From contig JANINQ010000006.1 of the NCBI GenBank assembly GCA_024508675.1, forward strand, positions 1 through 64,000: DNA of 64,000 bases, written 5' to 3'. Source of the DNA: Afipia sp. (GTDB lineage Bacteria; Pseudomonadota; Alphaproteobacteria; Rhizobiales; Xanthobacteraceae). How positions within the stretch are numbered: the first letter of the stretch is position 1; every line of letters begins with the position of its first letter. The position numbers and the translations under genes are program-made. The notes beneath the pieces are model-generated. The model made no database searches and was not told the DNA's origin. It was given only the letters and a program-made list of their open reading frames with translations. Shown one piece after another: positions 21,176-32,937 of this stretch.

Positions 21176-22405
21176 TTAGCCAACAGATTTCGATTCAGTC
21201 GAAATCCCCCCGCCGTCTTTTCTCGACCACCACAGAGCTATCGGCCCTAGGGCGATGCCTGCGCTTAGAACCGCAAATGCTGCCAGCCATCCGGTTCCGC
21301 TTGTCGTACCTCCAGCGGCGTCTAGAGCGGCTCCGACTCCCCAAGAACCGAGCGCTGATAGACCAAACCCTACAGTTGAGTGCATCGCCATTGTAGCACC
21401 ACGATAGTCAGGGTTCGCCGCCATCGTCATCCCAGCGGTGAGGGCGCCGGAGTCTGCCGGAACCGTGAGCGCGTATAACGCGACCAAGGGCAACAAGACC
21501 CACAATGACCCGCCTGAAAAAAGACCGATCAGAAGCGCCACGGCTGCCGAACTGAGCATGATCGTGGTTATGGCTCGGTGGCGACCAATCTTGATTGCTA
21601 TCTCATTGCCGATGACGCTTGCGGGCATCGCCAACAGGGAAAACACGAAGCTAACCGCGATAGGTGAAATAAGGGACGAACCGCCGTTGCTCGCCGCAAC
21701 AAAGGTCCAAAACGCAACAAGCCAGGTTCTAACGCCATAGAGTTCGAAACAGTGAGCCCCATATCCGAGCACAAAACCCATTGCTGGCTTGTTTCGAACC
21801 ACGGGACCGAAATCGAGAAGATGCCCGGATGCAGACTTAGGTTTTACCGGCCGCAGCAGCAAACAAACCACAATCATCGCCACCGGACCCATGGCGGTGA
21901 TGAAAAATGCATTGCGCCACCCGAGACTTTCCGCCACTAACTGTGAAACGAGGAATGAAAAGCCGACGCCTATTGAGAAGGCCGAAGTGTAGAGAGTGAC
22001 AGCCCGCGATGAATCGCCGGGCGCGAGCCGGTCAGTGAGAGCCTTAAGACCCGGCATGTAGGCTCCGGCAAAGCCGACGCCCGCGACGCTCCAAAGCGCC
22101 GCGCCAGACCACAATCCTTGAGCAAAAAATCCGAACAGGATCGTAGCAAACGCACTGAGCGCCGATCCGGCCAACAGTATCAAACGAGCATCTATACGAT
22201 CTGTGAGCGTAGCTAACACCGGCACAGCCAGCATGTATCCCGCAGCATAGGACCCCGCCAGCAACCCGGCTTGCGCTGCCGTCAAACCCCACTCAGGAAT
22301 CAGAAATTGAGCAAGAATCGACGGCACGACAACATGCGGCAGCAAGCTACCAAGCTGAGCAAGAGACATTCCCCAAACGACGGAACGACCTTTTAACCGG
22401 GTCAC
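21176..22405 (-). CDS. MFS transporter in the ars-like operon
   Basis: A 409-residue major facilitator with 12 hydrophobic segments, the loop 2-3 motif (L-A-T-L-T-D-R-I-D-A-R) and duplicated six-helix halves. It follows the Cys-tailed flavoprotein by 15 bases and is in one operon with an As(III)-type ArsR, so export of an arsenic species or of a flavoprotein product is the likely role. MFS proteins known in ars operons include ArsJ and ArsK; assignment to either is not supported by what I can see. Confidence 0.85.
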   Translation of the reverse strand: MTRLKGRSVVWGMSLAQLGSLLPHVVVPSILAQFLIPEWGLTAAQAGLLAGSYAAGYMLAVPVLATLTDRIDARLILLAGSALSAFATILFGFFAQGLWSGAALWSVAGVGFAGAYMPGLKALTDRLAPGDSSRAVTLYTSAFSIGVGFSFLVSQLVAESLGWRNAFFITAMGPVAMIVVCLLLRPVKPKSASGHLLDFGPVVRNKPAMGFVLGYGAHCFELYGVRTWLVAFWTFVAASNGGSSLISPIAVSFVFSLLAMPASVIGNEIAIKIGRHRAITTIMLSSAAVALLIGLFSGGSLWVLLPLVALYALTVPADSGALTAGMTMAANPDYRGATMAMHSTVGFGLSALGSWGVGAALDAAGGTTSGTGWLAAFAVLSAGIALGPIALWWSRKDGGGISTESKSVG

Positions 22406-22420
22406 TTCTTGAGCCCCGCG

Positions 22421-23785
22421 TCAACCGCAACCACAGCCCGCCTTCCCTTCGCTCTTAGCCACCGCATCGTCTGCACAGCAGGCGCTAGCGTCCACAGCGG
22501 GACCACCGCAACAACCATCAGCTGTTGCATTAGGCGCACTGACTCGGCTGCATACCCCTGTTTCGGGCAAAACCAGTTCGACCCGCTGAGCCGCCTCGTG
22601 GTCGCCCGCAATATCAGCAGCGATAGAGCGCACCTGTTCATATCCCGTAAGCATGAGAAACGTAGGAGCGCGGCCATAGGACTTGATGCCAGCGAAATAG
22701 AAACCCGGCTCATTCTGCGCAAGTTCTCGCGCACCGTGCGGCCTTACAGTGCCGCAGCTATGCTCGTTCGGATCGATGAGAGGAGCTAACGCTATCGGGC
22801 ATTCAATCGCAGAATCAAGTTGTATCCGCAATTCGCGAACGAAATCGAGATTGGTACGAAAACCCGTGGCAACAACAAGCTCGTCAACAATGACGTTCTT
22901 ACCACAACAGCCAGAGCCAGCACTTAAGCGAAGTCTTCCGCCATCCGAACTTACGTGACTAACCGGAAATTCGATCTCGGTTCTAATCGCGCCTGCCGAC
23001 ACAAGCGCCGCAAATGCAGTGCCAAGTTCGCCACGGGCAACCAGCTTGTCATTGACACCGCCGCCAAAAGCCTTCGCCGGATTGCTCCCTCGCAAAAGCC
23101 ATATCACTTCGGTGTTGGGTACCTCCCTTTTCAAGCTAGCAAGATCAATCAATGTGCCTATCGCGGAATGTCCCGAGCCGAGTACGGCCACCGACTTGCC
23201 AGCGTATCGCGAGCGTTCCTTGCCAAGAACATCCGGCATTCCATAGGCAATGTTTCGTGCGTGCTCTTTCTCACCGATTGCAGATAGTCCGTTAGCGCCC
23301 GCCGGATTGGGGCTGAACCATGTTCCCGACGCATCAATAATCGCGTCGGCAAGGATGGACTTAGGGCCTTGTCCATTTTGATAGCGAATCTCGAAAGGCG
23401 CAGCTTCGCGCCCCTTCGTTTTGAGTTTATCGAACCCTACGCGGCTAATATCTGTGACGCGGCTGGAAGTATGAATGTAGCTAGCAAGCGCCGTCTTGCT
23501 CGCAAGTGGCTGAAGATAACGCTCCAGCAATTCAGACCCGGTGGGATAAACGTCAGGCTCTGGACTATTCCAGCCTGTAGGCGCGAGAAGCCGCCTCGCC
23601 GCTTCATCCACATTGTATTCCCACGGTGAAAATAACTGGACATGCTGCCATTGCCGAAGCGCGTGGCCAATGTCTGGCCCTGCCTCCAGCACCACCGGAA
23701 CCATGCCGCGTTCGAGGAGGTGCGCAGCAGCCGCGAGCCCTACCGGCCCAGCACCAATAACGGCAACCCGCTTTGCTTTTGACAT
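22421..23785 (-). CDS. FAD/NAD(P)-binding flavoprotein with Cys-rich tail, arsenic-operon type (ArsO-like)
   Basis: A 454-residue flavoprotein monooxygenase-like protein. The FAD motif VIGAGPVGLAAAAHLLERG is at the N-terminus, and a second Rossmann motif (VLGSGHSAIG) for NADPH is mid-protein. The last 34 residues form a cysteine-rich tail with Cys pairs at 425-426 and 436-437 and Cys at 451 and 453, suited to binding a thiophilic metalloid. The ATG at 23785 has AGGAG 7 bases upstream; the frame is open to 23881. It sits between arsR and an MFS gene. Relatives in ars operons are called ArsO; CzcO-like naming also occurs. Exact reaction unknown. Confidence 0.85.
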   Translation of the reverse strand: MSKAKRVAVIGAGPVGLAAAAHLLERGMVPVVLEAGPDIGHALRQWQHVQLFSPWEYNVDEAARRLLAPTGWNSPEPDVYPTGSELLERYLQPLASKTALASYIHTSSRVTDISRVGFDKLKTKGREAAPFEIRYQNGQGPKSILADAIIDASGTWFSPNPAGANGLSAIGEKEHARNIAYGMPDVLGKERSRYAGKSVAVLGSGHSAIGTLIDLASLKREVPNTEVIWLLRGSNPAKAFGGGVNDKLVARGELGTAFAALVSAGAIRTEIEFPVSHVSSDGGRLRLSAGSGCCGKNVIVDELVVATGFRTNLDFVRELRIQLDSAIECPIALAPLIDPNEHSCGTVRPHGARELAQNEPGFYFAGIKSYGRAPTFLMLTGYEQVRSIAADIAGDHEAAQRVELVLPETGVCSRVSAPNATADGCCGGPAVDASACCADDAVAKSEGKAGCGCG

Positions 23786-23832
23786 TTTGTTCTCCTGTAA
23801 AACTAGAAATATCGAATTAACGGACGAAAAGA

Positions 23833-24150
23833 TTACGCCGCAGACTGTGATGCGTTGCATTCCACCGCGTCGGCGCAGCATTCCGCAACGAGGAAATCAA
23901 CCAGACCTTGCATGACTGGATAGTTGGCGTGACAGACCAACGTGGTCGCTTCTCGGACCTGATTTATCAATCCTGCTACCACCAGCGCCTTGACGTGGTG
24001 CGAGAGCGTTGAAGGGGCGATCTTTAGTTTGTCCTGCAATCGCCCTACAGGCATTCCCACGTCACCCGCTCGCACCAAGGCGCGATAGATTTTCAACCGC
24101 GTGGGATTTCCCAACGCTTCAAGTTTCGCCGCTGCATCCTCTATTTTCAT
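23833..24150 (-). CDS. arsR: ArsR/SmtB-family repressor with C-terminal As(III) site
   Basis: A 105-residue winged-helix repressor: E-A-L-G-N-P-T-R-L-K-I-Y-R-A-L, then P-S-T-L-S-H-H-V-K-A-L as recognition helix. It lacks the ELCVCDL-type Cys site in helix 3 but has Cys91, Cys92 and Cys98 near the C-terminus. The C-C-x5-C spacing is identical to the As(III) site of Acidithiobacillus ferrooxidans ArsR (Cys95, Cys96, Cys102). It should release DNA upon As(III) or Sb(III) binding. First gene of the operon; probably autoregulated through the palindromes just upstream. Confidence 0.9.
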   Translation of the reverse strand: MKIEDAAAKLEALGNPTRLKIYRALVRAGDVGMPVGRLQDKLKIAPSTLSHHVKALVVAGLINQVREATTLVCHANYPVMQGLVDFLVAECCADAVECNASQSAA

Positions 24151-24406: not shown

Positions 24407-25192
24407 CATGAATTGAAGAACTTGCGAGCTCGTGGGGCACCTAAATGAAATTGTTGGTCTTGGGAGTTCGAATTGCCGCGCTCAGAAAGGGTGTCAACCT
24501 TTTGTATCGGTTTTCGACAGAAACTCTATCAGCCCGTCGCGAGTTGTTCGATCATTTGCTAAAGCATGTAGTTGTGGTCGTTCCATACTGGCGTCGAGAC
24601 CCGCTTTGCTGGGAAGGATTCGAACTACGAAATGGCAGAGGTCCGCTTCGGGTCAACAGCTGCGTATCGAAGAGAGGCGCAGTTGAGACGGAAATTTATC
24701 GACGTTCTGGCCAGCACTCAGTGCTATCGAACCCGTCTCTGGCCTAGGTTCTCTGAAAACGGGAATATTTTGTTAGACGGCCGGAGAATACTGGTCGATT
24801 ACATGCGCGCTGGCGGAAAAACGGTCTCTGCAGAGAATGCCCTCGCGTGAAAAGCCCGCTATTGGCGGCCCTTTTCCGCAACTTAGAGAGAAATTCGCTA
24901 AATCACGCACTAGATGGCTGCCTTGGAAGAGATCGAACCAGCACATTCCCGAACTAAATCCTCCCTTTGATTTCAAAAGGAAATTTCGCATTTTTTGAGA
25001 GATTTCGAGGGCGGAGAAAATGTCAGCAAATGCCGGGGGAAACAAGTGCACCCGCCCGCCAAGTCCGCGCTATTGTGTGTTGGCGGGACAATCCGCAATG
25101 TCAACAATATTGCTTGATATGACCCATCGAGAGTTGCCAAGGCCCTGCATCATCTTCTCCCTCACAATAGATTCTCTTCTCGGTAGCAAGGT
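24407..25192. other. Gene-poor stretch containing a decayed tRNA-Gln 3' region
   Basis: Nearly 800 bases without a supported gene. ORFs of 80-100 codons on the plus strand overlap one another and the repeat copy (24735-24960), so they are not believable. A palindromic core CAATATTG within TCAACAATATTGCTTGA lies about 90 bases before the MarR gene and may be its operator; this is speculative. Confidence 0.4.
24735..24960 (-). repeat. Imperfect direct repeat of the tRNA-Gln 3' flank, decayed copy
   Basis: This stretch matches 32690-32937 in order and orientation. Shared blocks are GAAAACGGGAAT, GGTCTC(T/C)GxAGAGA, AAGCCCGC(T/C)ATTGGCGG, AGAAATTC, then TGGCTG followed by GATCGAACC, the last two corresponding to the CCA end and T-loop of tRNA-Gln. 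The tRNA part no longer folds. The copy lies about 8 kb from the intact tRNA, flanking the block with the two-component system and the lipid-type genes, as expected for an old integration duplicate. Confidence 0.6.
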
Positions 25193-25657
25193 ATGGCAAT
25201 GGCACCTGCGAAGCTGAAGCGGCCAGCATCTGCGCCTGTCGCGCGGCTTCTCGATCAGGTCGCCCGTGCAATGCACTCGATCGGTCACGATGGCGGTCTC
25301 TTTCCGGCACAATGGACGGCACTGCGCTACTTTCGTGATGCCGCCGCGCCACATAACACCGCGATGGGACTGGCCCGCTTTCAAGGGCTGGCGTTCGGAC
25401 CGGTTTCTCGTTCGGTACGGACCCTGATTGAAAAAGGTTTACTGCGTAAAGCCGGGTCCGCCGGACGCGGCCGCTCGGAGAGCGTGGAACTGACAAGCAT
25501 GGGCCGCGCTCTGCTCAAGGCAGATCCGTTGCTCGTGGTGGTGCGGGCAATCGAAGCAATGCCACCGGAACAGGCCGAAAGTCTGGCGATGGCATGTGAA
25601 GCCATCATCGCTGCTGTGCAGGCGCAAAAGCATGAGTCGACACAGGCGGCTGAATAA
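25193..25657 (+). CDS. MarR-like winged-helix transcriptional regulator
   Basis: A 154-residue regulator. The core reads F-P-A-Q-W-T-A-L-R-Y-F, then G-P-V-S-R-S-V-R-T-L-I-E-K-G-L-L-R-K (recognition helix) and a wing with R-S-E-S-V-E-L-T-S-M-G-R-A-L. It is the only DNA-binding protein in the 25-33 kb block and so a candidate for binding the palindromes at 28392-28412 and 30584-30606. It converges with the response-regulator gene, 6 bases apart. Ligand unknown. Confidence 0.8.
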   Translation: MAMAPAKLKRPASAPVARLLDQVARAMHSIGHDGGLFPAQWTALRYFRDAAAPHNTAMGLARFQGLAFGPVSRSVRTLIEKGLLRKAGSAGRGRSESVELTSMGRALLKADPLLVVVRAIEAMPPEQAESLAMACEAIIAAVQAQKHESTQAAE

Positions 25658-25663
25658 CGGACC

Positions 25664-26041
25664 TCAGTTCTCCTCCATCAAAGCCTCGACCAGAAGCGAC
25701 TCATCGAAGGGCTTGAGGAAAACCTTTTCGGCCCCCCAGATTTCGGCAATCGACGTCGCTGCCTCCAGTGTCAGGCGAGGCCCGCCGCCGGTAATTGCAA
25801 AGACCCGGAGCGACATCTGCTCCTGCCTTATCCGCTTGATAAGACCGAGTCCGTCCATTTCCGGCATCCAAAGATCGGTGACGACCGCATCGAATGAGCC
25901 GGCGATAATGCGCTCAAGCGCCTCCTTGCCATTCTCGGCATAGGAGGGTCGATGCCCGGCCGCACTCAACGCGGCACCGATGGACTCCCGCATGGCTGGA
26001 ACATCGTCGACAACCAGAATACTCAGTGGTCCACTTTTCAC
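25664..26041 (-). CDS. Single-domain response regulator (receiver only)
   Basis: A 125-residue CheY-like receiver domain. The acidic pair is in VVDDV, the phosphoacceptor Asp56 is in V-V-T-D-L-W-M-P-E-M-D-G, and the conserved Lys is in V-F-L-K-P-F. There is no output domain, so it must act through a protein partner or in a phosphorelay. Its start overlaps the histidine kinase stop by 4 bases (ATGA), showing they form one two-component pair. Confidence 0.92.
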   Translation of the reverse strand: MKSGPLSILVVDDVPAMRESIGAALSAAGHRPSYAENGKEALERIIAGSFDAVVTDLWMPEMDGLGLIKRIRQEQMSLRVFAITGGGPRLTLEAATSIAEIWGAEKVFLKPFDESLLVEALMEEN

Positions 26042-28380
26042 GTCTGCCCCTCCCCCGAGCGAAAGGTAATCGTCACCCTCGTTCCCTGCCGGGGTTCCGA
26101 TTGGATATCAAGCACCGCATTCCAGCTCTTAACCAGCCCGTAAACCACATAGAGGCCAAGGCCGGTGCCTTCATTGGCCTTCCTGGTGGTAAAGAAAGGA
26201 TCGAGCGCCTGTTGCAGGGTTTCCGCGTCCATGCCCTCACCCTCGTCGGTGACGGTGAGTACCGTGGCGTCCAATCCCTCGTATCGGCTGGTCCGCACAT
26301 CCAGACTGACCTTCCCGCCCCCTTGCGAAGCGTGAACCGCGTTCGCAACCAGATTGACGACAATCTGAAAAACCTCATGCACAGGCAGTACAGGACCCGG
26401 GGCTCCATCACCCGTCAGGTCCAGACGAATCCCGTGCGGCAAGACATTGCGAACAGAATCCAGTGCGCGCGTGACGCTCTCGAACAGCGGCGCCGTTGCC
26501 GCTGTCTCGGACGCCGGCCGCACATTGTTCAGCAAGGCTCTCACGATTTCGGCCGCGCGCTTTCCCGAGTCCACAACCACGTCAAGCCAGCGGCGCTTTT
26601 CATCGTCCTGCTCTGTCTGTTCGGCCACGCGACGGGACAGATTGATGATGGGATGGAGCAGATTGTTGATTTCGTGCGCAACGCCTCCTGCGAGCTGGCC
26701 CATGGCCGCAAGTTTTTGCTGCTGGGTCTGCCGCCGCTGGTCGAGAATATCCCGCGTGATGTCCGTCGCGATGCCTCTGTATCCCAACAGGGCTCCATCG
26801 GACGCAAACCGCGCTGAACCGCGCAGGTCGATGTAACTGCCAGGACTGCCGTGCTGCCCGGCCAGGTGGAGAATGTGCCGCAGCGGCGCTCCGCTCGCGA
26901 CACTGGAGGAACCATCTGGCTTGAGATGTGCATCCGGCTTTCCCGCTTGCACGATCTCCAGAAAAGAACGCCCCGGACGGATGCCGGCACGGTCAGCCGC
27001 CGGTCCGGTTGCGAAAGTAACGCATCCGCTATCATCTGTTTCCCAGAAGCTGTCCGACGCGCTGTGAGCGAAATCCCTGAGACGGTCGGTCGTCGCTTCG
27101 ACCGAAGCCCTCAAGGCGCGCTCACGCCGATGCGCTTCAACCGACGTGATGATCCCGAAAACCGCGAAACAGAAACATGTCGCCACGTAGGTGGCGTTGA
27201 GCGCATAGGCGTTGCTGCCAATTGCCGGCACCACATCGTGCAGCATGCGGGCAATGCCGGCGGCAAGACCGACCGCCCAGCACAGCAGGAAGATCGTCGT
27301 ACGCCTGCGTTCGAGTTTGAACATCGCTGCGGCGATCCCGATTCCGAACAGCAGCGAACCGATACCGACGATGGAGGTGAATCGCCTGAGAAAACGCCAT
27401 TCGAACAGCACGGCAATCGCGGTTGCTATCGCAAACAGGAGGCAAAAAAGCGCGACGCCTCTTGCGATCCGCGACAGCAACGGGCGACGGCTCGCGACCC
27501 TGAGATAGCCGTCCGTAAAGAACAACCACCAGGAAAACAGAAGCGTACTGGAGAATATGGAAAGAACCCGCGAGACGCTCAAGGCGCCCGGCATCAAATG
27601 CGACTCCAGAAATGCCTGATGAGTGAGGATATAAATCAGATAGGTCAGTGTGAAAGCCGACAAGATCAAGGTCGTCCGGTCCGATGTCGCGATCCCGTTG
27701 GCGAAGAGATAGAGTGCGAGAATACCGAGAAGCCCCGATGCCACACCGAACAGAAAGCCTTGCGTGCCGTAGGCGACCGCAAAATCCATATCGCTTTGCA
27801 GCCTGACCGTCGCCCGCATGGAGGATGCGGTGTCGATACGCAGGAAAACCGTGCGTCCGGAAATGATATTTGCCGGCACCACGATCGCCGGGTACCGCGT
27901 CGTGGATACCGACGGGTTGGCATGCTGCTCCCCGCTCCAGGTAAAGCTCCTGCCTTCGGACGGCACGAACAGGTCCACTCGCCGAATCCGCGTCTCCACA
28001 ACAGACATGACCCAATCCTGCGCATCAGAACCAGTCAGGGCCGGGATCGGTATCCTTAGCCAAAGGGCTGCAGCGCTGTTTGGCTGCGGTCCGTAATTGG
28101 CAGGAGTGCCATTGGCGGGAGTGAACTGCGTTGCAATCGCCGGGGCTGTCACATCGGCGATGGAGAGTTTTCCGGTCAAGTCGAGCAGATGATCCGCGAC
28201 AGGACCGAGTTCATACGTAGCCGCCGCGGCATTTTGGAGGATCGCGGACTGGAACAGCACAGCGACGACCGCAGCAAGGAGAAACGCCGCGGCCCGCGCA
28301 CGCCGAACCGGGCATTCGCGGGCGCTGTGGCCCGGCTTCTTCCATCCTGATTGTGTGAGCCGCAGGGAACGAGAAATCAT
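26038..28380 (-). CDS. Membrane histidine kinase, 7TMR-DISM type with PAS domain
   Basis: A 780-residue sensor kinase. An N-terminal signal/TM segment is followed by an extracellular 7TMR-DISM-like beta domain (about 50-205, with the W-L-R-I-P and F-L-R-I-D strands), seven hydrophobic helices (about 205-420), a PAS domain (about 440-555), a HisKA helix with H569 in G-G-V-A-H-E-I-N-N, and a HATPase with the N box (N680), D-E-G-E-G-M-D and G-T-G-L-G-L. 7TMR-DISM domains bind extracellular carbohydrates or lipids. It follows the alpha-oxoamine synthase by 55 bases, with a palindrome between, so it may sense a product or precursor of that module. Confidence 0.88.
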   Translation of the reverse strand: MISRSLRLTQSGWKKPGHSARECPVRRARAAAFLLAAVVAVLFQSAILQNAAAATYELGPVADHLLDLTGKLSIADVTAPAIATQFTPANGTPANYGPQPNSAAALWLRIPIPALTGSDAQDWVMSVVETRIRRVDLFVPSEGRSFTWSGEQHANPSVSTTRYPAIVVPANIISGRTVFLRIDTASSMRATVRLQSDMDFAVAYGTQGFLFGVASGLLGILALYLFANGIATSDRTTLILSAFTLTYLIYILTHQAFLESHLMPGALSVSRVLSIFSSTLLFSWWLFFTDGYLRVASRRPLLSRIARGVALFCLLFAIATAIAVLFEWRFLRRFTSIVGIGSLLFGIGIAAAMFKLERRRTTIFLLCWAVGLAAGIARMLHDVVPAIGSNAYALNATYVATCFCFAVFGIITSVEAHRRERALRASVEATTDRLRDFAHSASDSFWETDDSGCVTFATGPAADRAGIRPGRSFLEIVQAGKPDAHLKPDGSSSVASGAPLRHILHLAGQHGSPGSYIDLRGSARFASDGALLGYRGIATDITRDILDQRRQTQQQKLAAMGQLAGGVAHEINNLLHPIINLSRRVAEQTEQDDEKRRWLDVVVDSGKRAAEIVRALLNNVRPASETAATAPLFESVTRALDSVRNVLPHGIRLDLTGDGAPGPVLPVHEVFQIVVNLVANAVHASQGGGKVSLDVRTSRYEGLDATVLTVTDEGEGMDAETLQQALDPFFTTRKANEGTGLGLYVVYGLVKSWNAVLDIQSEPRQGTRVTITFRSGEGQT

Positions 28381-28391
28381 CGGACAATCAA

Positions 28392-28412
28392 TTTTTGCTC
28401 ACTGAGCTAATA
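28392..28412. promoter_or_regulatory. Palindromic operator candidate, copy 1 (upstream of the histidine kinase)
   Basis: TTTTTGCTCA / TGAGCTAATA around a central C, located 12 bases before the kinase start codon and just after the alpha-oxoamine synthase stop. The core GCTCACTGAGC is identical to the better palindrome at 30584-30606. Two copies at the two promoter positions of the same gene block indicate a shared regulator. Confidence 0.55.
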
Positions 28413-28435
28413 AAGGGAGTCGAACATCTACGTCT

Positions 28436-29650
28436 TCAAACAGACTCGCTCCGCGCCGCATCATAACTCACCGAGGCGCGGTTTATCAGCGTCTCCAGCG
28501 CGCGCGAAATGTCGCGATCCTCATGCAATGCCGAAATGAAGAATCGCAACCGGGGCTTTTCTTTCGGCACACCGATCCTGACGATGGGCGGAACATAATA
28601 GCCGGCCTGCTTGAGCAACTCGGACGCTTCCAGCACGGCCTGTTCGTTCTTCATCAGCACCGGCACGACGCCGATGCCGATGGCTGGTCCCGTATCGAGA
28701 CCGAGCCGTTCGGCCTCGCGCAGAAAGTGCCGGGACTTTTCCCTCAATATCTCCGTTAACGCCGGCTCGCGTTTCAGCACACGCAATGCCGACAGCGCGG
28801 AAGCCGCAACGCTGGGTGCGAGGCCTACGCTGAAGACGAATCCCGGCAACGTATACCGAAGCCACCGGATGACTGCGCCATGTCCCGCGATGAATCCGCC
28901 CGATGAGACGAACGCCTTGGAGAGCGTACCGACGATCAGATCGACATCGGCAACATCAACATTACAATGTTCGCAAAGCCCCCGGCCGCTGCTTCCAAGC
29001 GTTCCGATGGAATGAGCCTCGTCGACCATCAGCCAGCAATCGTGCTCGTCCTTGATCTCCACAAGCTCCGGCAGGTCGGCGACGTCGCCATCCATGCTGT
29101 AGAGACCCTCGACCACGATCAGGCATCGCTTGTAGCGGCCTCGCATGGCGGCGAGTTTCCGGCGGAGATCGGACAGATCGTTATGAGCGAACGGGTGCGA
29201 GTCGCATCGCGCCGCTCGCGTTCCCACGACAATGCTGTTGTGGCAAAGTTCATCGTACAGGATCAGGTCCTGCGACGACATCAGGTGAGCCAGCAAGGTA
29301 ACATTAGTCAAATAGCCGCTGACCAGCGTCAGCGCGGCCTCCGTCCCGACGAACGCGGCAAGTTCCTCCTCAAGATCGCCGTGCAGCATGCGCTCGCCGC
29401 CGACCATCCGCGACGCGGACACCGACGGACCCAGGCTGTCCAGCATCCTGTGTGCGCTCATCACAACATCGGGGTGCGTGGATAATCCCAAATAATCGTA
29501 GTGCGCGAAGCTGACCACCGATTGGCCTTCACGCTCGCGGGACAGGCGAAAACCATCGACCGGCAGAAAGAACGGATCGCGGCCCGAAATGAGATTCGCT
29601 CCCGCGAGCCGATACCTGCTCAATGCATGATCAACAAGCGAGCGCGACAT
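28436..29650 (-). CDS. PLP-dependent alpha-oxoamine synthase (serine palmitoyltransferase / BioF / CqsA superfamily)
   Basis: A 404-residue fold-type I PLP enzyme that condenses an amino acid with an acyl thioester. Family blocks are N-x-L-G-like Y-D-Y-L-G-L, G-G-E-R-M-L-H-G-D-L-E-E-E-L-A-A-F-V-G, D210-E-A-H213-S and the PLP lysine K245 in G-T-L-S-K-A-F. The GGxRxxxG-x-x-x-x-H-x-x-L pattern is nearer to serine palmitoyltransferase-like and KBL enzymes than to CqsA. The ATG at 29650 overlaps the SDR stop by one base; the frame runs on to 29953, antiparallel to nothing but inside the SDR gene, so I reject the longer form. With the SDR and the acyltransferase-like gene at 31458 it suggests a sphingoid-base pathway. 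Confidence 0.82.
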   Translation of the reverse strand: MSRSLVDHALSRYRLAGANLISGRDPFFLPVDGFRLSREREGQSVVSFAHYDYLGLSTHPDVVMSAHRMLDSLGPSVSASRMVGGERMLHGDLEEELAAFVGTEAALTLVSGYLTNVTLLAHLMSSQDLILYDELCHNSIVVGTRAARCDSHPFAHNDLSDLRRKLAAMRGRYKRCLIVVEGLYSMDGDVADLPELVEIKDEHDCWLMVDEAHSIGTLGSSGRGLCEHCNVDVADVDLIVGTLSKAFVSSGGFIAGHGAVIRWLRYTLPGFVFSVGLAPSVAASALSALRVLKREPALTEILREKSRHFLREAERLGLDTGPAIGIGVVPVLMKNEQAVLEASELLKQAGYYVPPIVRIGVPKEKPRLRFFISALHEDRDISRALETLINRASVSYDAARSESV

Positions 29651-30501
29651 TATCGAATATCCAGTTGTGCGGAGGAGGAGTCGGCCGTGCCCGCGGTTAC
29701 ACGCTCCGGCTGACCGGCAGCACGATAGGGGCTCGCGTCCAGACCAAATTTCGACGACAGCCAGACAGCAAATCCGGCCGGCACAAATTTGAGGATGAAG
29801 CACGCGGCTGCGTATTGGAACGGAATGATGGCGAGCGCCCGCTTCCTGGCGATGCAGGCCATGATCGCTTTTGCTGCCGCGTCCGGCTTCATCTGGAACG
29901 GCTTGAACGTATTCAGCCGCGCGCTCATGGGTGTATCGACATATCCCGGGCATATTACCGAAACAGCGATGCCATGTCCGCGAAGCGCCGCGTTTAGCGA
30001 CAGGGCAAAGGCATTCAACCCCGCCTTCGAGGCGGCGTAACCCGCAGCCATGGGCAGCGGCACAAAGGCCGCGACCGAACTGATCATCGCGATTGCGCCG
30101 CCCTCACCGCGCACGATCATCCGCTCGGCAATCAGGCTGGCACCAGCCGCCGGACCGCGAAGATTGATATCAAGAAGGCGGACAATCTGTTGCGGCGTCT
30201 CGGTCTGCTGAAGCGGCGCGCGCGTATCGCCGACGCCGGCGTTAAAGATCACGAGATCGAAGCACCAGTGCCGGTCCAGCTCTGACAGTGCATCGAGAAA
30301 TCCGTCCGTGTCGGCGATGTCATGGACTGATTTGACAACGCACGCCCCCTTGTCGCGGCACACAGAGGAAACACGCGAAAGCCGCTCTTCATTTCGCCCC
30401 ATCAGCACGAGCGTCACCTGCTCGCGCGCGTAGGCCGTAGCAAGCGACGCGCCGATCCCGCTCGAGGCGCCGGTAATGAGGATGGTGCGAGGAGAGGTCA
30501 T
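29650..30501 (-). CDS. SDR-family reductase with hydrophobic C-terminus (3-ketosphinganine-reductase-like candidate)
   Basis: A 283-residue classical SDR: cofactor motif TGASSGIG at 10-17, N-A-G at 87-89, active-site Ser near 142 and Y155-A-A-S-K159. Residues about 223-249 are strongly hydrophobic and may anchor it to the membrane, as in ketosphinganine reductases. It overlaps the alpha-oxoamine synthase by one base, so both are made together; reducing the keto group that the synthase creates is the simplest role. The ATG at 30501 follows GGTAGCTTC and is the family start; a start at 30549 is less likely. Confidence 0.82.
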   Translation of the reverse strand: MTSPRTILITGASSGIGASLATAYAREQVTLVLMGRNEERLSRVSSVCRDKGACVVKSVHDIADTDGFLDALSELDRHWCFDLVIFNAGVGDTRAPLQQTETPQQIVRLLDINLRGPAAGASLIAERMIVRGEGGAIAMISSVAAFVPLPMAAGYAASKAGLNAFALSLNAALRGHGIAVSVICPGYVDTPMSARLNTFKPFQMKPDAAAKAIMACIARKRALAIIPFQYAAACFILKFVPAGFAVWLSSKFGLDASPYRAAGQPERVTAGTADSSSAQLDIR

Positions 30502-30542
30502 GAAGCTACCGAAATACCACCAGCGGTTACGGACCACGGCCC

Positions 30543-30568
30543 CGGTCACGTACTTAAATCTGTGACCG
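30543..30568. promoter_or_regulatory. Inverted repeat CGGTCAC-N12-GTGACCG
   Basis: A perfect 7-base inverted repeat with a 12-base spacer lies in the divergent region between the SDR (start 30501) and the outer-membrane protein gene (start 30647). The centre-to-centre distance is near two helical turns, typical of a dimer operator. It is distinct from the neighbouring GCTCACTGAGC palindrome, so two regulators may act here. Confidence 0.5.
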
Positions 30569-30583
30569 TTGCAGAAGAGTTAC

Positions 30584-30606
30584 ATAATAGCTCACTGAGC
30601 TATTAT
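30584..30606. promoter_or_regulatory. Palindromic operator candidate, copy 2 (upstream of the outer-membrane protein)
   Basis: ATAATAGCTCA / TGAGCTATTAT around a central C: a perfect 11-base-per-arm palindrome. It overlaps an AT-rich stretch that could serve as -10 (TATTAT) for the outer-membrane protein gene, with a weak TTGCAG -35 at 30569. Its core recurs at 28397-28407. A repressor binding here would block the plus-strand promoter and could also affect the divergent SDR promoter. Confidence 0.62.
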
Positions 30607-30646
30607 ATAGGAAGGATACCGGTTTTCAGTGGTTGGGGAAATTTCA

Positions 30647-31336
30647 ATGTTCAAAAAAGTTGTTCTGGCTGGCGTGATTGCAGCCGTTGCCGCGTCCGGA
30701 GCCGCCGCCGCGGATCTTTATGTCAAAGCCAAGCCGATGCCCGTGGTTTCGGCCTATAACTGGACCGGCTTCTATGTCGGCGGCCATGTCGGCTATCTCT
30801 GGGGCGATGTCACCGGCACCTCTTTCGCGCGAAATGGCAATGACGTCATTGACCCAAAGGGCTATCTCGCCGGCGTTCAGGGCGGCTATCGCTATCAGTT
30901 CGCCAACCGGCTTGTACTCGGGTTTGAGGTCAACGCACCCGTTGCCTTCCAGAAGCAGACCGTTCAGTCGGCGTTGATTCCCGGCGTCTCCTACACCGCG
31001 GACGTCAAATATGCCGTCTCTGCGATCGGCACCTTAGGCTACGCTTTCGACCGCTGGCTGCCTTATATCGGCGGCGGCATCGGGACTGCTGAGGTCAAGG
31101 GCGGCGCGATCTTTGGTCCCGGCGTCACCGAGTACCAGACCCAACAGCACACGCTGGGGCAGTTTGTTGCCGGCGTGAACTACGGCATCACGGACAACCT
31201 TGTCGCGGGCGTGCGATATACCTATCAGGTCGCGGAAAAATCCACCTATCCGTTTGCTTGCTGCAGCGTGCCGCTTCCGGTCACTTACGGACTCGAATCC
31301 AGCGCCGTGGTTGGAACGCTGGAATTCAAGTTCTGA
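30647..31336 (+). CDS. Outer-membrane beta-barrel protein (Omp25/Omp31 type)
   Basis: A 229-residue protein with a signal peptide (MFKKVVLAGVIAAVAASGAAAA, cleavage about residue 22) and the rhizobial porin-like layout: Y-N-W-T-G-F-Y-V-G-G-H-V-G-Y-L-W, G-G-Y-R-Y-Q-F, and a terminal strand ending L-E-F-K-F with the C-terminal Phe of outer-membrane barrels. It likely forms an eight-stranded barrel. It is transcribed divergently from the SDR/synthase unit with shared operators, so it may be a membrane change tied to the lipid product. A short Cys pair near residue 205 is unusual. Confidence 0.88.
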   Translation: MFKKVVLAGVIAAVAASGAAAADLYVKAKPMPVVSAYNWTGFYVGGHVGYLWGDVTGTSFARNGNDVIDPKGYLAGVQGGYRYQFANRLVLGFEVNAPVAFQKQTVQSALIPGVSYTADVKYAVSAIGTLGYAFDRWLPYIGGGIGTAEVKGGAIFGPGVTEYQTQQHTLGQFVAGVNYGITDNLVAGVRYTYQVAEKSTYPFACCSVPLPVTYGLESSAVVGTLEFKF

Positions 31337-31457
31337 TGGAAAACACTCTTGCGGGCGGTTGAATCGGGACATCGGTTCAGCCGCCTGAAAGCAACAGCGA
31401 GACCATGACCGCCTTGAATCTGAATCGGCGGCGTGTCACTCCAGCCGAGACGCGGCA

Positions 31458-32597
31458 ATGATCGCCGTCACACCCGTTGCATCCCGAAAAGACTTGCAGG
31501 ACTTCCTGCGCCTTCCACGAGTACTTTATCGCGGCATGCAGGGATACTCCGCTCCACTCGACATGGAGCGCGAACAGACGTTGTCGCCGAAAAAGTCGCC
31601 TTTTTTCCAAAACAATGAGGCCGTGTTTTTTCTCGCACGCCTCGAGGGAAAAGCCGTAGGGCGGATATCAGCGCAGATATTAGGTGATACACCGGCGCAG
31701 TGGCCGCTCAAAACCGGCTTGTTCGGATGTTTGGATGCGATCGACGATCCGCGCGTGATCTGCGCCTTGCTTGACGAAGCAGGACGATGGCTTCAAGCGC
31801 GCGGAATGGATCGGATGCGCGGGCCGTTCAACCTGTCGTCGAACGGCGAGACCGGTCTTCAGGTCGGCGGACAATCACATACTCCGATGGTGATGACACC
31901 ATGGCATCCGCCCTATCTCGCAGCGCATGTTGAGGCCTTGAACCTCGAACCGATCAAGGATGTCGTGTCTTATAGCCTCGACCTGGCGCGGCTCGGACCG
32001 TCCGACTTGAAACGCCATCGGGCCCTGACAGCAAGGGCGACCGGCGATCTCAAGGTCCGCGGCCTCGATCTGCGACATCTGCGCCGCGACATCCGGATCA
32101 TCACAACCATCTATAATGATGCATGGTCCAGCAACTGGGGCTTTACACCGATATCCAATGCCGAATCCTTGGCGATGGCGGACTCGCTCAAAGCGATCAT
32201 CCAGCAAGACATGGCGGTCATTGTCGAACGCGGCGGCATGCCTATCGCCGTCGCATTGTGGATCCCCAACATCCAGGAGATGGTTGCCGATATGGACGGC
32301 CGTCTGATGCCATTCAACTGGATCAGGTTTCTCTGGCGCGCTCGGCGCCGCGCTTATTCCAGTTGCCGTGTCATTCTGCTGGGAGTTGCTCAATCGGAGC
32401 GGGGAAATCCCTCAAATCTTGGCCTGCCCGCCATGATGATCGGTGAACTCGTGCACCGGTCGATCAATCACAAGATTCGTCAGGTCGAACTTGGCTGGGT
32501 TCTCGAGGACAACATGGGTCTGCGGCGCACCATCGAACGTATCGGCGGAACGATGTCGACTACACATCGGATCTATGAAATCGGACTATCGGTCTAA
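31458..32597 (+). CDS. GNAT-like acyltransferase resembling bacterial ceramide synthase (bCerS)
   Basis: A 379-residue protein of the family often misnamed dATP pyrophosphohydrolase. Its members include the Caulobacter bacterial ceramide synthase. Recognisable blocks are D-F-L-R-L-P-R-V-L-Y-R, K-x-P-F-F-x-x-N-E-A-x-F-F-L-A-R, V-G-R-I-S-A-Q, R-G-P-F-N-L-S-S-N-x-E-T-G, Y-N-D-A-W-S-x-N-W-G-F and G-W-V-L-E-D-N-x-G-M/L-R. bCerS N-acylates a sphingoid base with acyl-CoA. Presence 1.8 kb from an alpha-oxoamine synthase and an SDR is the main argument for a sphingolipid-like module here. Other family members may acylate other amines. Confidence 0.75.
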   Translation: MIAVTPVASRKDLQDFLRLPRVLYRGMQGYSAPLDMEREQTLSPKKSPFFQNNEAVFFLARLEGKAVGRISAQILGDTPAQWPLKTGLFGCLDAIDDPRVICALLDEAGRWLQARGMDRMRGPFNLSSNGETGLQVGGQSHTPMVMTPWHPPYLAAHVEALNLEPIKDVVSYSLDLARLGPSDLKRHRALTARATGDLKVRGLDLRHLRRDIRIITTIYNDAWSSNWGFTPISNAESLAMADSLKAIIQQDMAVIVERGGMPIAVALWIPNIQEMVADMDGRLMPFNWIRFLWRARRRAYSSCRVILLGVAQSERGNPSNLGLPAMMIGELVHRSINHKIRQVELGWVLEDNMGLRRTIERIGGTMSTTHRIYEIGLSV

Positions 32598-32798
32598 AGG
32601 CGAGATGAGCCAGCCACCGTTTGTAAGCAGAGAAAGTTCGATTCAACTACGTGGACATCGCGCAGTGGTTTTATTCTTCCGTCTCTGGAACGAGACTCTA
32701 GAAAACGGGAATTCTTCAATGGATGAGTGGAGACTGGCCCCGGATTTCGGAATGTAATGGTTCGAATCCGGTCTCCGTAGAGACTCAGCATGCGCAAG

Positions 32799-32819
32799 AA
32801 GCCCGCCATTGGCGGGCTT
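32799..32819. terminator. Terminator hairpin downstream of tRNA-Gln
   Basis: AAGCCCGCC-ATT-GGCGGGCTT, a perfect 9-base stem, followed on the plus strand by TTCTC. It lies 44 bases past the CCA end of the minus-strand tRNA and about 200 bases after the plus-strand acyltransferase gene, so it could serve both directions. Confidence 0.65.
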
Positions 32820-32862
32820 TTCTCGCACGAAAGAAAGAAATTCTCCGAAATCCGCACTTGCT

Positions 32863-32937
32863 GGCTGGGGCGGGAGGGATCGAACCTCCGAATGGGGGAA
32901 TCAAAATCCCCTGCCTTACCGCTTGGCTACGCCCCAA
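32863..32937 (-). tRNA. tRNA-Gln (anticodon TTG), CCA encoded
   Basis: On the minus strand the gene runs from TGGGGCG (32937) to GCCCCAG-CCA (32863), 75 bases with the encoded CCA. The acceptor stem pairs TGGGGCG with the complementary 3' strand, the D arm contains AGCCAAGCGGTAAGGC, the anticodon stem-loop is GGGGA-TTTTGAT-TCCCC with TTG, and the T arm has GGAGG-TTCGATC-CCTCC. The fold is complete. Its 3' region is duplicated at 24735-24960. Confidence 0.96.

Follow-up and report, generated by a model that had tools for sequence, protein, structure and literature searches.

A 64,000-nucleotide stretch of Afipia sp. DNA (positions 1 to 64,000 of contig JANINQ010000006.1, assembly GCA_024508675.1; hereafter the window) encodes an alpha-oxoamine synthase, a short-chain dehydrogenase/reductase (SDR) and a GNAT-like protein close to one another, and the question raised by this locus is what the three enzymes make. 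An earlier note, made from the sequence of the window, proposed an N-acylated sphingoid-type lipid by likeness to the canonical ceramide pathway. Every gene named in that note is an open reading frame (Table 1), and the synthase and SDR genes, both on the minus strand, do have one base in common (29650). A barrel gene and the gene for the GNAT-like protein are transcribed divergently from them, on the plus strand; the three enzymes therefore do not share one operon. The proposed lipid is backed here by the tree of the synthase, by the grouping of the GNAT-like protein with bacterial ceramide synthase (bCerS) and by the co-occurrence of the genes elsewhere; the likeness to the canonical pathway holds only in part, as the synthase lies outside the canonical serine palmitoyltransferase (Spt) clade and the classical SDR that would act as reductase does not resemble CerR, which is of the epimerase type. 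Judged from these comparisons, the module is likely to be a compact, non-canonical pathway for a (dihydro)ceramide-type lipid.

Class and clade of the synthase

The synthase has the class I/II aminotransferase fold of the alpha-oxoamine synthases (NCBIfam and Pfam). At E 1e-5 it matches 11 NCBIfam models, in each case below the curated cut-off. It scores 335 bits against bioF (cut-off 426), 283 bits against glycine C-acetyltransferase (KBL; cut-off 460) and 234 bits against ALAS (HemA; cut-off 339). Three NCBIfam Spt models give 279, 274, and 191 bits (cut-offs 640, 500, and 670, respectively), whereas two Spt from ceramide-type clusters, used as a positive comparison, exceed the 500-bit cut-off of NF047599 with 625 and 600 bits. 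Identity to two canonical Spt is 34-36%. The residues of the pyridoxal phosphate site (H137, D210, H213, and K245) match those of Spt in the alignment, but, being common to the whole superfamily, are not specific for Spt. The genome containing the window has only three alpha-oxoamine synthases: this one, one above the ALAS cut-off, and one that matches bioF best but falls below the bioF cut-off.

Two phylogenetic trees were used to place the synthase. The first has 76 rows, obtained from 123 gathered sequences by thinning at 82% identity, with some rows always kept and same-genome repeats taken out; the second has 60 rows, after removal of 21 rows from the first and addition of five. CqsA/LqsA and PfSgaB itself (see below) were left out of both. 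Canonical Spt form one group in the trees, with Bacteroidota-type Spt, KBL, and BioF close by. The window synthase falls inside a clade free of polyketide synthase (PKS) genes (support 100/99 in both trees); in the sister of this PKS-free clade most synthases are PKS-linked, of the RkpG/SgaB type (support for the two clades together 100/97 and 100/98). The window synthase is outside the PKS-linked clade in both trees, and the synthase of a PKS-synthase pair on a Pseudomonas plasmid belongs to it. A tree in which the two Afipia rows are forced to join canonical Spt is worse by 193 log-likelihood units (approximately unbiased [AU] test, p 2.7e-96), and the canonical Spt label is rejected on this test. 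Identity as BioF or KBL, which the earlier note had set against its own proposal, is excluded by the curated cut-offs and by both trees, in which the synthase clusters with neither; cut-off and trees likewise speak against HemA. The nearest group within the clade comprises two Acetobacteraceae loci with the same synthase-SDR/divergent-bCerS layout (98/87 in the 60-row tree, only 94/34 in the 76-row tree), and the synthase of A. clevelandensis is 95% identical to that of the window.

PfSgaB, the synthase of the PKS cluster of Pseudomonas fluorescens MYb115, has measured serine palmitoyltransferase activity and takes serine almost to the exclusion of alanine and glycine; the same report describes a KDSR-like SDR in the cluster and calls this step unusual in bacteria (PMC12134224). 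The window module resembles this SgaA/SgaB/SgaC system in having a synthase of the sister clade (44% identity to the Pseudomonas plasmid relative, as a stand-in for PfSgaB) and a classical SDR (35% identity to the SDR of the Pseudomonas plasmid PKS-synthase cluster, which may or may not be SgaC), but differs in having a bCerS and no PKS beside it. No PKS-sized frame is present in the window between 20 and 42 kb (a genome-wide PKS search was not made). In the S. meliloti capsule pair, which we take to be rkpG and rkpH, a synthase (46% identity) is likewise directly followed by an SDR; that locus differs in its adjoining PKS and capsule gene, in that no bCerS was seen there, and in the SDR at the RkpH position, which is only 26% identical to that of the window.

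The bCerS-family N-acyltransferase and its synthase partners

The GNAT-like protein has no NCBIfam match at E 1e-5 and no Pfam match at 0.01; the GNAT label comes from its homologues and its predicted fold. The best Foldseek matches of its AlphaFold model (predicted local distance difference test 86, predicted template modelling score 0.85) are N-acetyltransferases, including tandem GNATs. E. coli YghO is 33% identical across 99% of the query and is encoded next to a synthase (Spt), an acyl carrier protein (ACP), an epimerase-family gene, a fatty-acyl-AMP ligase, and LptF/LptG genes; Roseomonas homologues (37-39% identical) are found in the same Spt-ACP-AMP-ligase type of cluster. The protein also matches 44 plasmid records at E 1e-3. 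The references came from 31 bCerS sequences, 28 of them from class-sample loci of canonical-Spt genomes and the other three from cluster members (two of Roseomonas and one of E. coli); 26 remained after thinning at 80% identity. The window protein agrees with these at 46 of the 50 positions conserved in at least 90% of them, and in a 65-row tree the partners of window-type synthases are intermixed with bCerS references from canonical-Spt settings. The resemblance to bCerS suggested in the earlier note is thus borne out by the tree: on homology the GNAT-like protein is a member of the bCerS/YghO family, with N-acylation of a sphingoid base as its predicted function.

The distribution of the two genes was followed first in a class sample of 337 genomes, searched for bCerS at E 1e-20, for canonical Spt with NF047603 at E 1e-100 (only four being above the curated cut-off), and for the window-type synthase at E 1e-70, PKS-linked forms included. 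bCerS is found in 44 genomes, canonical Spt in 42, and both in 41. Three of the 44 have bCerS without canonical Spt: the window genome (G000) and G531, in which a window-type synthase stands beside bCerS, and G232, in which a divergent synthase is 0.7 kb from bCerS. Canonical Spt without bCerS is found in a single genome, which is 82% complete. The window synthase type is present in 16 genomes, eight of which also have bCerS; the two genes are side by side in three (G000, G531, and G356) and on other contigs in five, all of which also possess canonical Spt.

Among 198 genomes of the family, bCerS is present in eight, the synthase type in 30, and both in six, always on one contig and at most 4 kb apart; synthase type and GNAT-like protein co-occur more often than expected by chance (hypergeometric P 1.7e-4 for co-occurrence alone). 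Two of the six (G117 and G176) have the PKS-clade form of the synthase, and the remaining two bCerS genomes (G015 and G043) have synthases to which the Spt model gives 385 and 373 bits. Only two of the 12 listed same-genus genomes of this sample, the window's own included, carry synthase and GNAT-like protein, so the module is accessory. Named genomes hold at least 546 related loci. In the best 80 of these (four of the bCerS-bearing ones also being in the samples above), bCerS lies in the fetched stretch of 45, within 4 kb of the synthase in 44 and at about 8 kb in one. The genes co-occur in other genomes too, and none of the three outcomes that the earlier note named as refuting has arisen.

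The neighbours of this pair differ among relatives. An operon of Methylocystis rosea (L150:8989-13146) encodes, in order, the synthase, bCerS, a desaturase, and an FA_hydroxylase protein; Pfam assigns the desaturase to 'Sphingolipid Delta4-desaturase (DES)' (36 bits against a cut-off of 23), and the operon predicts unsaturated or hydroxylated ceramides. The desaturase and hydroxylase BLAST clusters occur in 34 and 24, respectively, of 88 loci (three of which repeat a genome); Pfam confirmed two of the hydroxylases and one of the desaturases. A search at 1e-8 for relatives of the Methylocystis desaturase in six genomes, including that of the window, gave no match, but it had no positive control and shows little. 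Proteins of glycosyltransferase family 21, a family that includes ceramide glucosyltransferases, adjoin bCerS in G015 and G051. In L098 (G356) and L038 (G176) bCerS is found together with an RkpG-type synthase and a PKS-sized frame, an arrangement that suggests PKS-derived ceramides.

Reduction, acyl supply and the proposed pathway

The canonical pathway consists of Spt, AcpR, AasR, CerR, and bCerS; the five dihydroceramide genes are reported to be clustered in E. coli BL21 and Caulobacter, and Spt to co-occur with AcpR and AasR in alpha-, beta-, and gamma-proteobacteria (PMC9386255). The window module shares with it an alpha-oxoamine synthase, a reductase, and a bCerS homologous over its full length, but has a synthase of another clade, a classical SDR as the reductase, and no match to AasR in its genome.

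The window SDR shares 48% and 40% identity with the SDRs that occupy the corresponding position in two Acetobacteraceae loci. It has no meaningful match to two CerR-type proteins, and no KDSR is named among the 60 SDR matches listed for it in the PDB. With a Roseomonas CerR-type query, the best match in the window genome reaches 72 bits, compared with 195 in G362 and 162 in G356; each of the latter also has a second, weaker CerR-type copy. The weak copy is taken as a housekeeping relative, which leaves the window genome with no clear CerR. Because the SDR of the module does not match CerR and the genome has only this weak copy, the classical SDR probably carries out the keto reduction.

A Roseomonas fatty-acyl-AMP ligase, taken as AasR, has no relative at 1e-40 in the window genome or in G197 (of the same genus), G021, G051, G531, and G232; the same query matches G356 at 1e-186 and G362 at 1e-183, with weaker relatives in G117. 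No ACP was recognized among the proteins scanned. Since the window genome has no AasR relative, the acyl donor would probably be acyl-CoA or a general acyl-ACP. One of the weaker relatives in G117 belongs to a single frame (L042:5117-8398) that fuses an AMP ligase, a phosphopantetheine domain (weak, at 21.7 bits against a cut-off of 20.8 with the segment scanned alone), and a PKS-clade synthase, and adjoins an SDR and a divergent bCerS.

In the pathway proposed here, the synthase would form a 3-keto sphingoid base by condensing an acyl thioester with an amino acid, of which L-serine is the likeliest; the SDR, whose gene overlaps that of the synthase, would reduce the keto group, a step for which Caulobacter uses the epimerase-type CerR; and the bCerS-family protein would place a second acyl chain on the amine. 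The analysis shows gene content, homology, clade, linkage, and the missing AasR match directly, whereas the reactions, their order, serine as the substrate, and any head group are inferred. A sphingolipid product is favoured because four lines of evidence meet: the measured activity of PfSgaB, the rule that bCerS is partnered with canonical Spt or else with another synthase close by, the linkage of the genes, and neighbours such as the desaturase (DES) and hydroxylase. The homology of the GNAT-like protein to bCerS, the fused frame of G117, and the presence of only three alpha-oxoamine synthases in the window genome also count in favour of the pathway.

A broader proposal, towards which we lean only slightly, is that alphaproteobacteria (Afipia, Acetobacteraceae, Methylocystis, Methylosinus, Beijerinckia, and others) use for ceramide synthesis a second, PKS-free lineage of serine palmitoyltransferases that lies outside canonical Spt and is paired with bCerS but without AasR. 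In Afipia and Acetobacteraceae a classical, eukaryote-like SDR would replace CerR; in methanotrophs the lineage would feed Delta4-desaturase-like and hydroxylase enzymes, predicting ceramides of the sphingosine or phytosphingosine type. bCerS, Spt, CerR, and the PKS-linked SgaB are already known; a search of open-access literature, with few subscription journals, found nothing on the PKS-free clade, on bCerS as its partner, or on the making of sphingolipids by Afipia or Methylocystis.

Several observations weigh against a ceramide-type pathway of this kind. No bCerS is found in 24 of the 30 family genomes with the synthase type, and a PKS-sized frame lies beside the synthase in all nine of these that were inspected. 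bCerS is likewise missing from 35 of the 80 related loci, 28 of which are an inositol-phosphate-synthase operon; the other seven are outside that operon type, some of them on short contigs. The bCerS-linked PKS-free synthases do not form one clade, as a tree with all of them in a single clade is rejected (AU p 1.1e-4), and in methanotroph operons the SDR is not adjacent to the synthase. Within the proteins, the substrate-pocket positions 270-276 of the synthase are unlike Spt and mostly match the PKS-linked clade, positions 354-362 are also unlike Spt, and position 368 of the window bCerS is Thr where all 26 references have Lys.

The inositol-type operon, as in Shimia sp. (L159:8983-17095) and 27 similar loci, is headed by a synthase of the same clade without bCerS, and includes genes for DUF4833, inositol-phosphate synthase, SDR, CTP transferase, two LptF/LptG proteins, and a glycosyltransferase (membership read by hand from the cluster list, with one representative checked by Pfam). 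The operon may serve to make an inositol sphingolipid for export to the outer membrane.

The shared Afipia block and alternative readings

The module of the window lies in a block of about 7.7 kb that is shared with A. clevelandensis and contains the genes for kinase, receiver, synthase, SDR, barrel, and GNAT-like protein (Table 1). Beyond the block only 32623-32868 (82% identity) and two short repeat matches align. The block of A. clevelandensis is also flanked by related repeats, with no tRNA called there in 20 kb. The block has the appearance of an old, tRNA-linked island; among its proteins, of which only six were scanned against families, there was no noticeable integrase. Such an island would explain why kinase, receiver, and barrel stand beside the module in Afipia but not elsewhere. 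To the left of the block, the frames at 21176-24150 (a transporter, a flavin-type oxidoreductase, and a small ArsR-like regulator) resemble by eye an arsenic gene group. A look for viral relatives gave nine pattern matches, none of which is a relative.

Table 1. Features of the locus (positions in the window).
Feature	Position	Strand	Basis and remarks
Left direct repeat	24852..24939		77% identical to 32799-32886 over 90 columns; resembles tRNA remnant
Block shared with A. clevelandensis	24900..32616		7,720 alignment columns, 92% DNA identity
Single-domain response regulator (receiver)	25664..26041	-	Pfam; neighbour on shared block
7TMR-DISM histidine kinase	26038..28380	-	Pfam; neighbour on shared block
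Alpha-oxoamine synthase, candidate serine palmitoyltransferase of PKS-free clade	28436..29650	-	404 aa; profile scores, trees, AU test
Classical SDR, candidate 3-keto sphingoid reductase	29650..30501	-	283 aa; adh_short 140 bits
Omp25-type outer-membrane barrel	30629..31336	+	OMP_b-brl 45 bits; neighbour, not conserved with module
bCerS/YghO-family N-acyltransferase (GNAT-like)	31458..32597	+	379 aa; homology, tree, predicted fold
Right direct repeat	32799..32886		Runs into tRNA-Gln gene
tRNA-Gln gene	32862..32936	-	Overlaps right direct repeat

The earlier note gave the module a sensor of its own, with the kinase and receiver sensing lipid or envelope state and controlling the enzymes. The presence of all six genes in one block at 92% DNA identity in A. 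clevelandensis, with differing flanks, is in keeping with such control, but a block shared by two close genomes counts as one observation only. Among the 80 related loci the kinase is matched in only two (A. clevelandensis, at 92%, and one at 25% identity), the receiver in one, and the barrel in one, that of A. clevelandensis; Pfam shows no output domain in the receiver. That the sensor is a conserved part of the module is rejected for this lack of conservation, so that the claim does not stand as made; kinase and receiver are block neighbours, not an established part of the pathway, and control by them is unlikely.

It is rather improbable that the lipid is ceramide-like but not derived from serine, as it would be if the synthase used alanine, glycine, or another amino acid to make a 1-deoxy or other amino-acid base. 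The pocket positions around 270-276 and 354-362 that are unlike known Spt would fit such a base, and the PDB matches of the synthase include alpha-oxoamine synthases that use other amino acids, such as cysteate acyltransferase; against it, PfSgaB, of the sister-clade type, is reported as near-exclusive for serine (PMC12134224), and the Methylocystis relatives stand beside a desaturase and a hydroxylase of sphingolipid type.

A further alternative, to which we give little probability, is that synthase and SDR make a lipid anchor for a capsule or other surface glycan, as proposed for rkpGH, and that bCerS merely acylates it. The S. meliloti and Shinella relatives in the sister clade do adjoin PKS and capsule genes, and in Acidisoma the same three-gene layout is found next to capsular genes and glycosyltransferases; the window synthase, however, is outside the PKS-linked clade, and both the absence of a PKS-sized frame from 20-42 kb and the low identity of the SDR to that at the RkpH position speak against an anchor of this type. 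The glycan-anchor and ceramide readings can be compatible, if the anchor is itself a sphingolipid.

Synthesis of a CqsA/LqsA-like alpha-hydroxyketone signal with the kinase as its receptor, the alternative offered in the earlier note, can practically be dismissed: the synthase is of the same enzyme superfamily and reaches 178 bits against the CqsA hidden Markov model, but the cut-off is 428 bits, PDB matches give CqsA 100 and Spt 228 bits, the partner is a bCerS-family N-acyltransferase, and the kinase is not conserved.

If the proposed (dihydro)ceramide-type pathway is correct, a non-canonical Spt clade paired with bCerS would add alphaproteobacterial producers, including methanotrophs and Afipia, and the first step, acyl activation, and reduction would be exchangeable while the N-acyltransferase stays. 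In Caulobacter, CerR is reported to be periplasmic, and N-acylation is proposed to precede reduction (PMC11087976); for this question of whether reduction comes before or after N-acylation, the module would offer a compact gene set.

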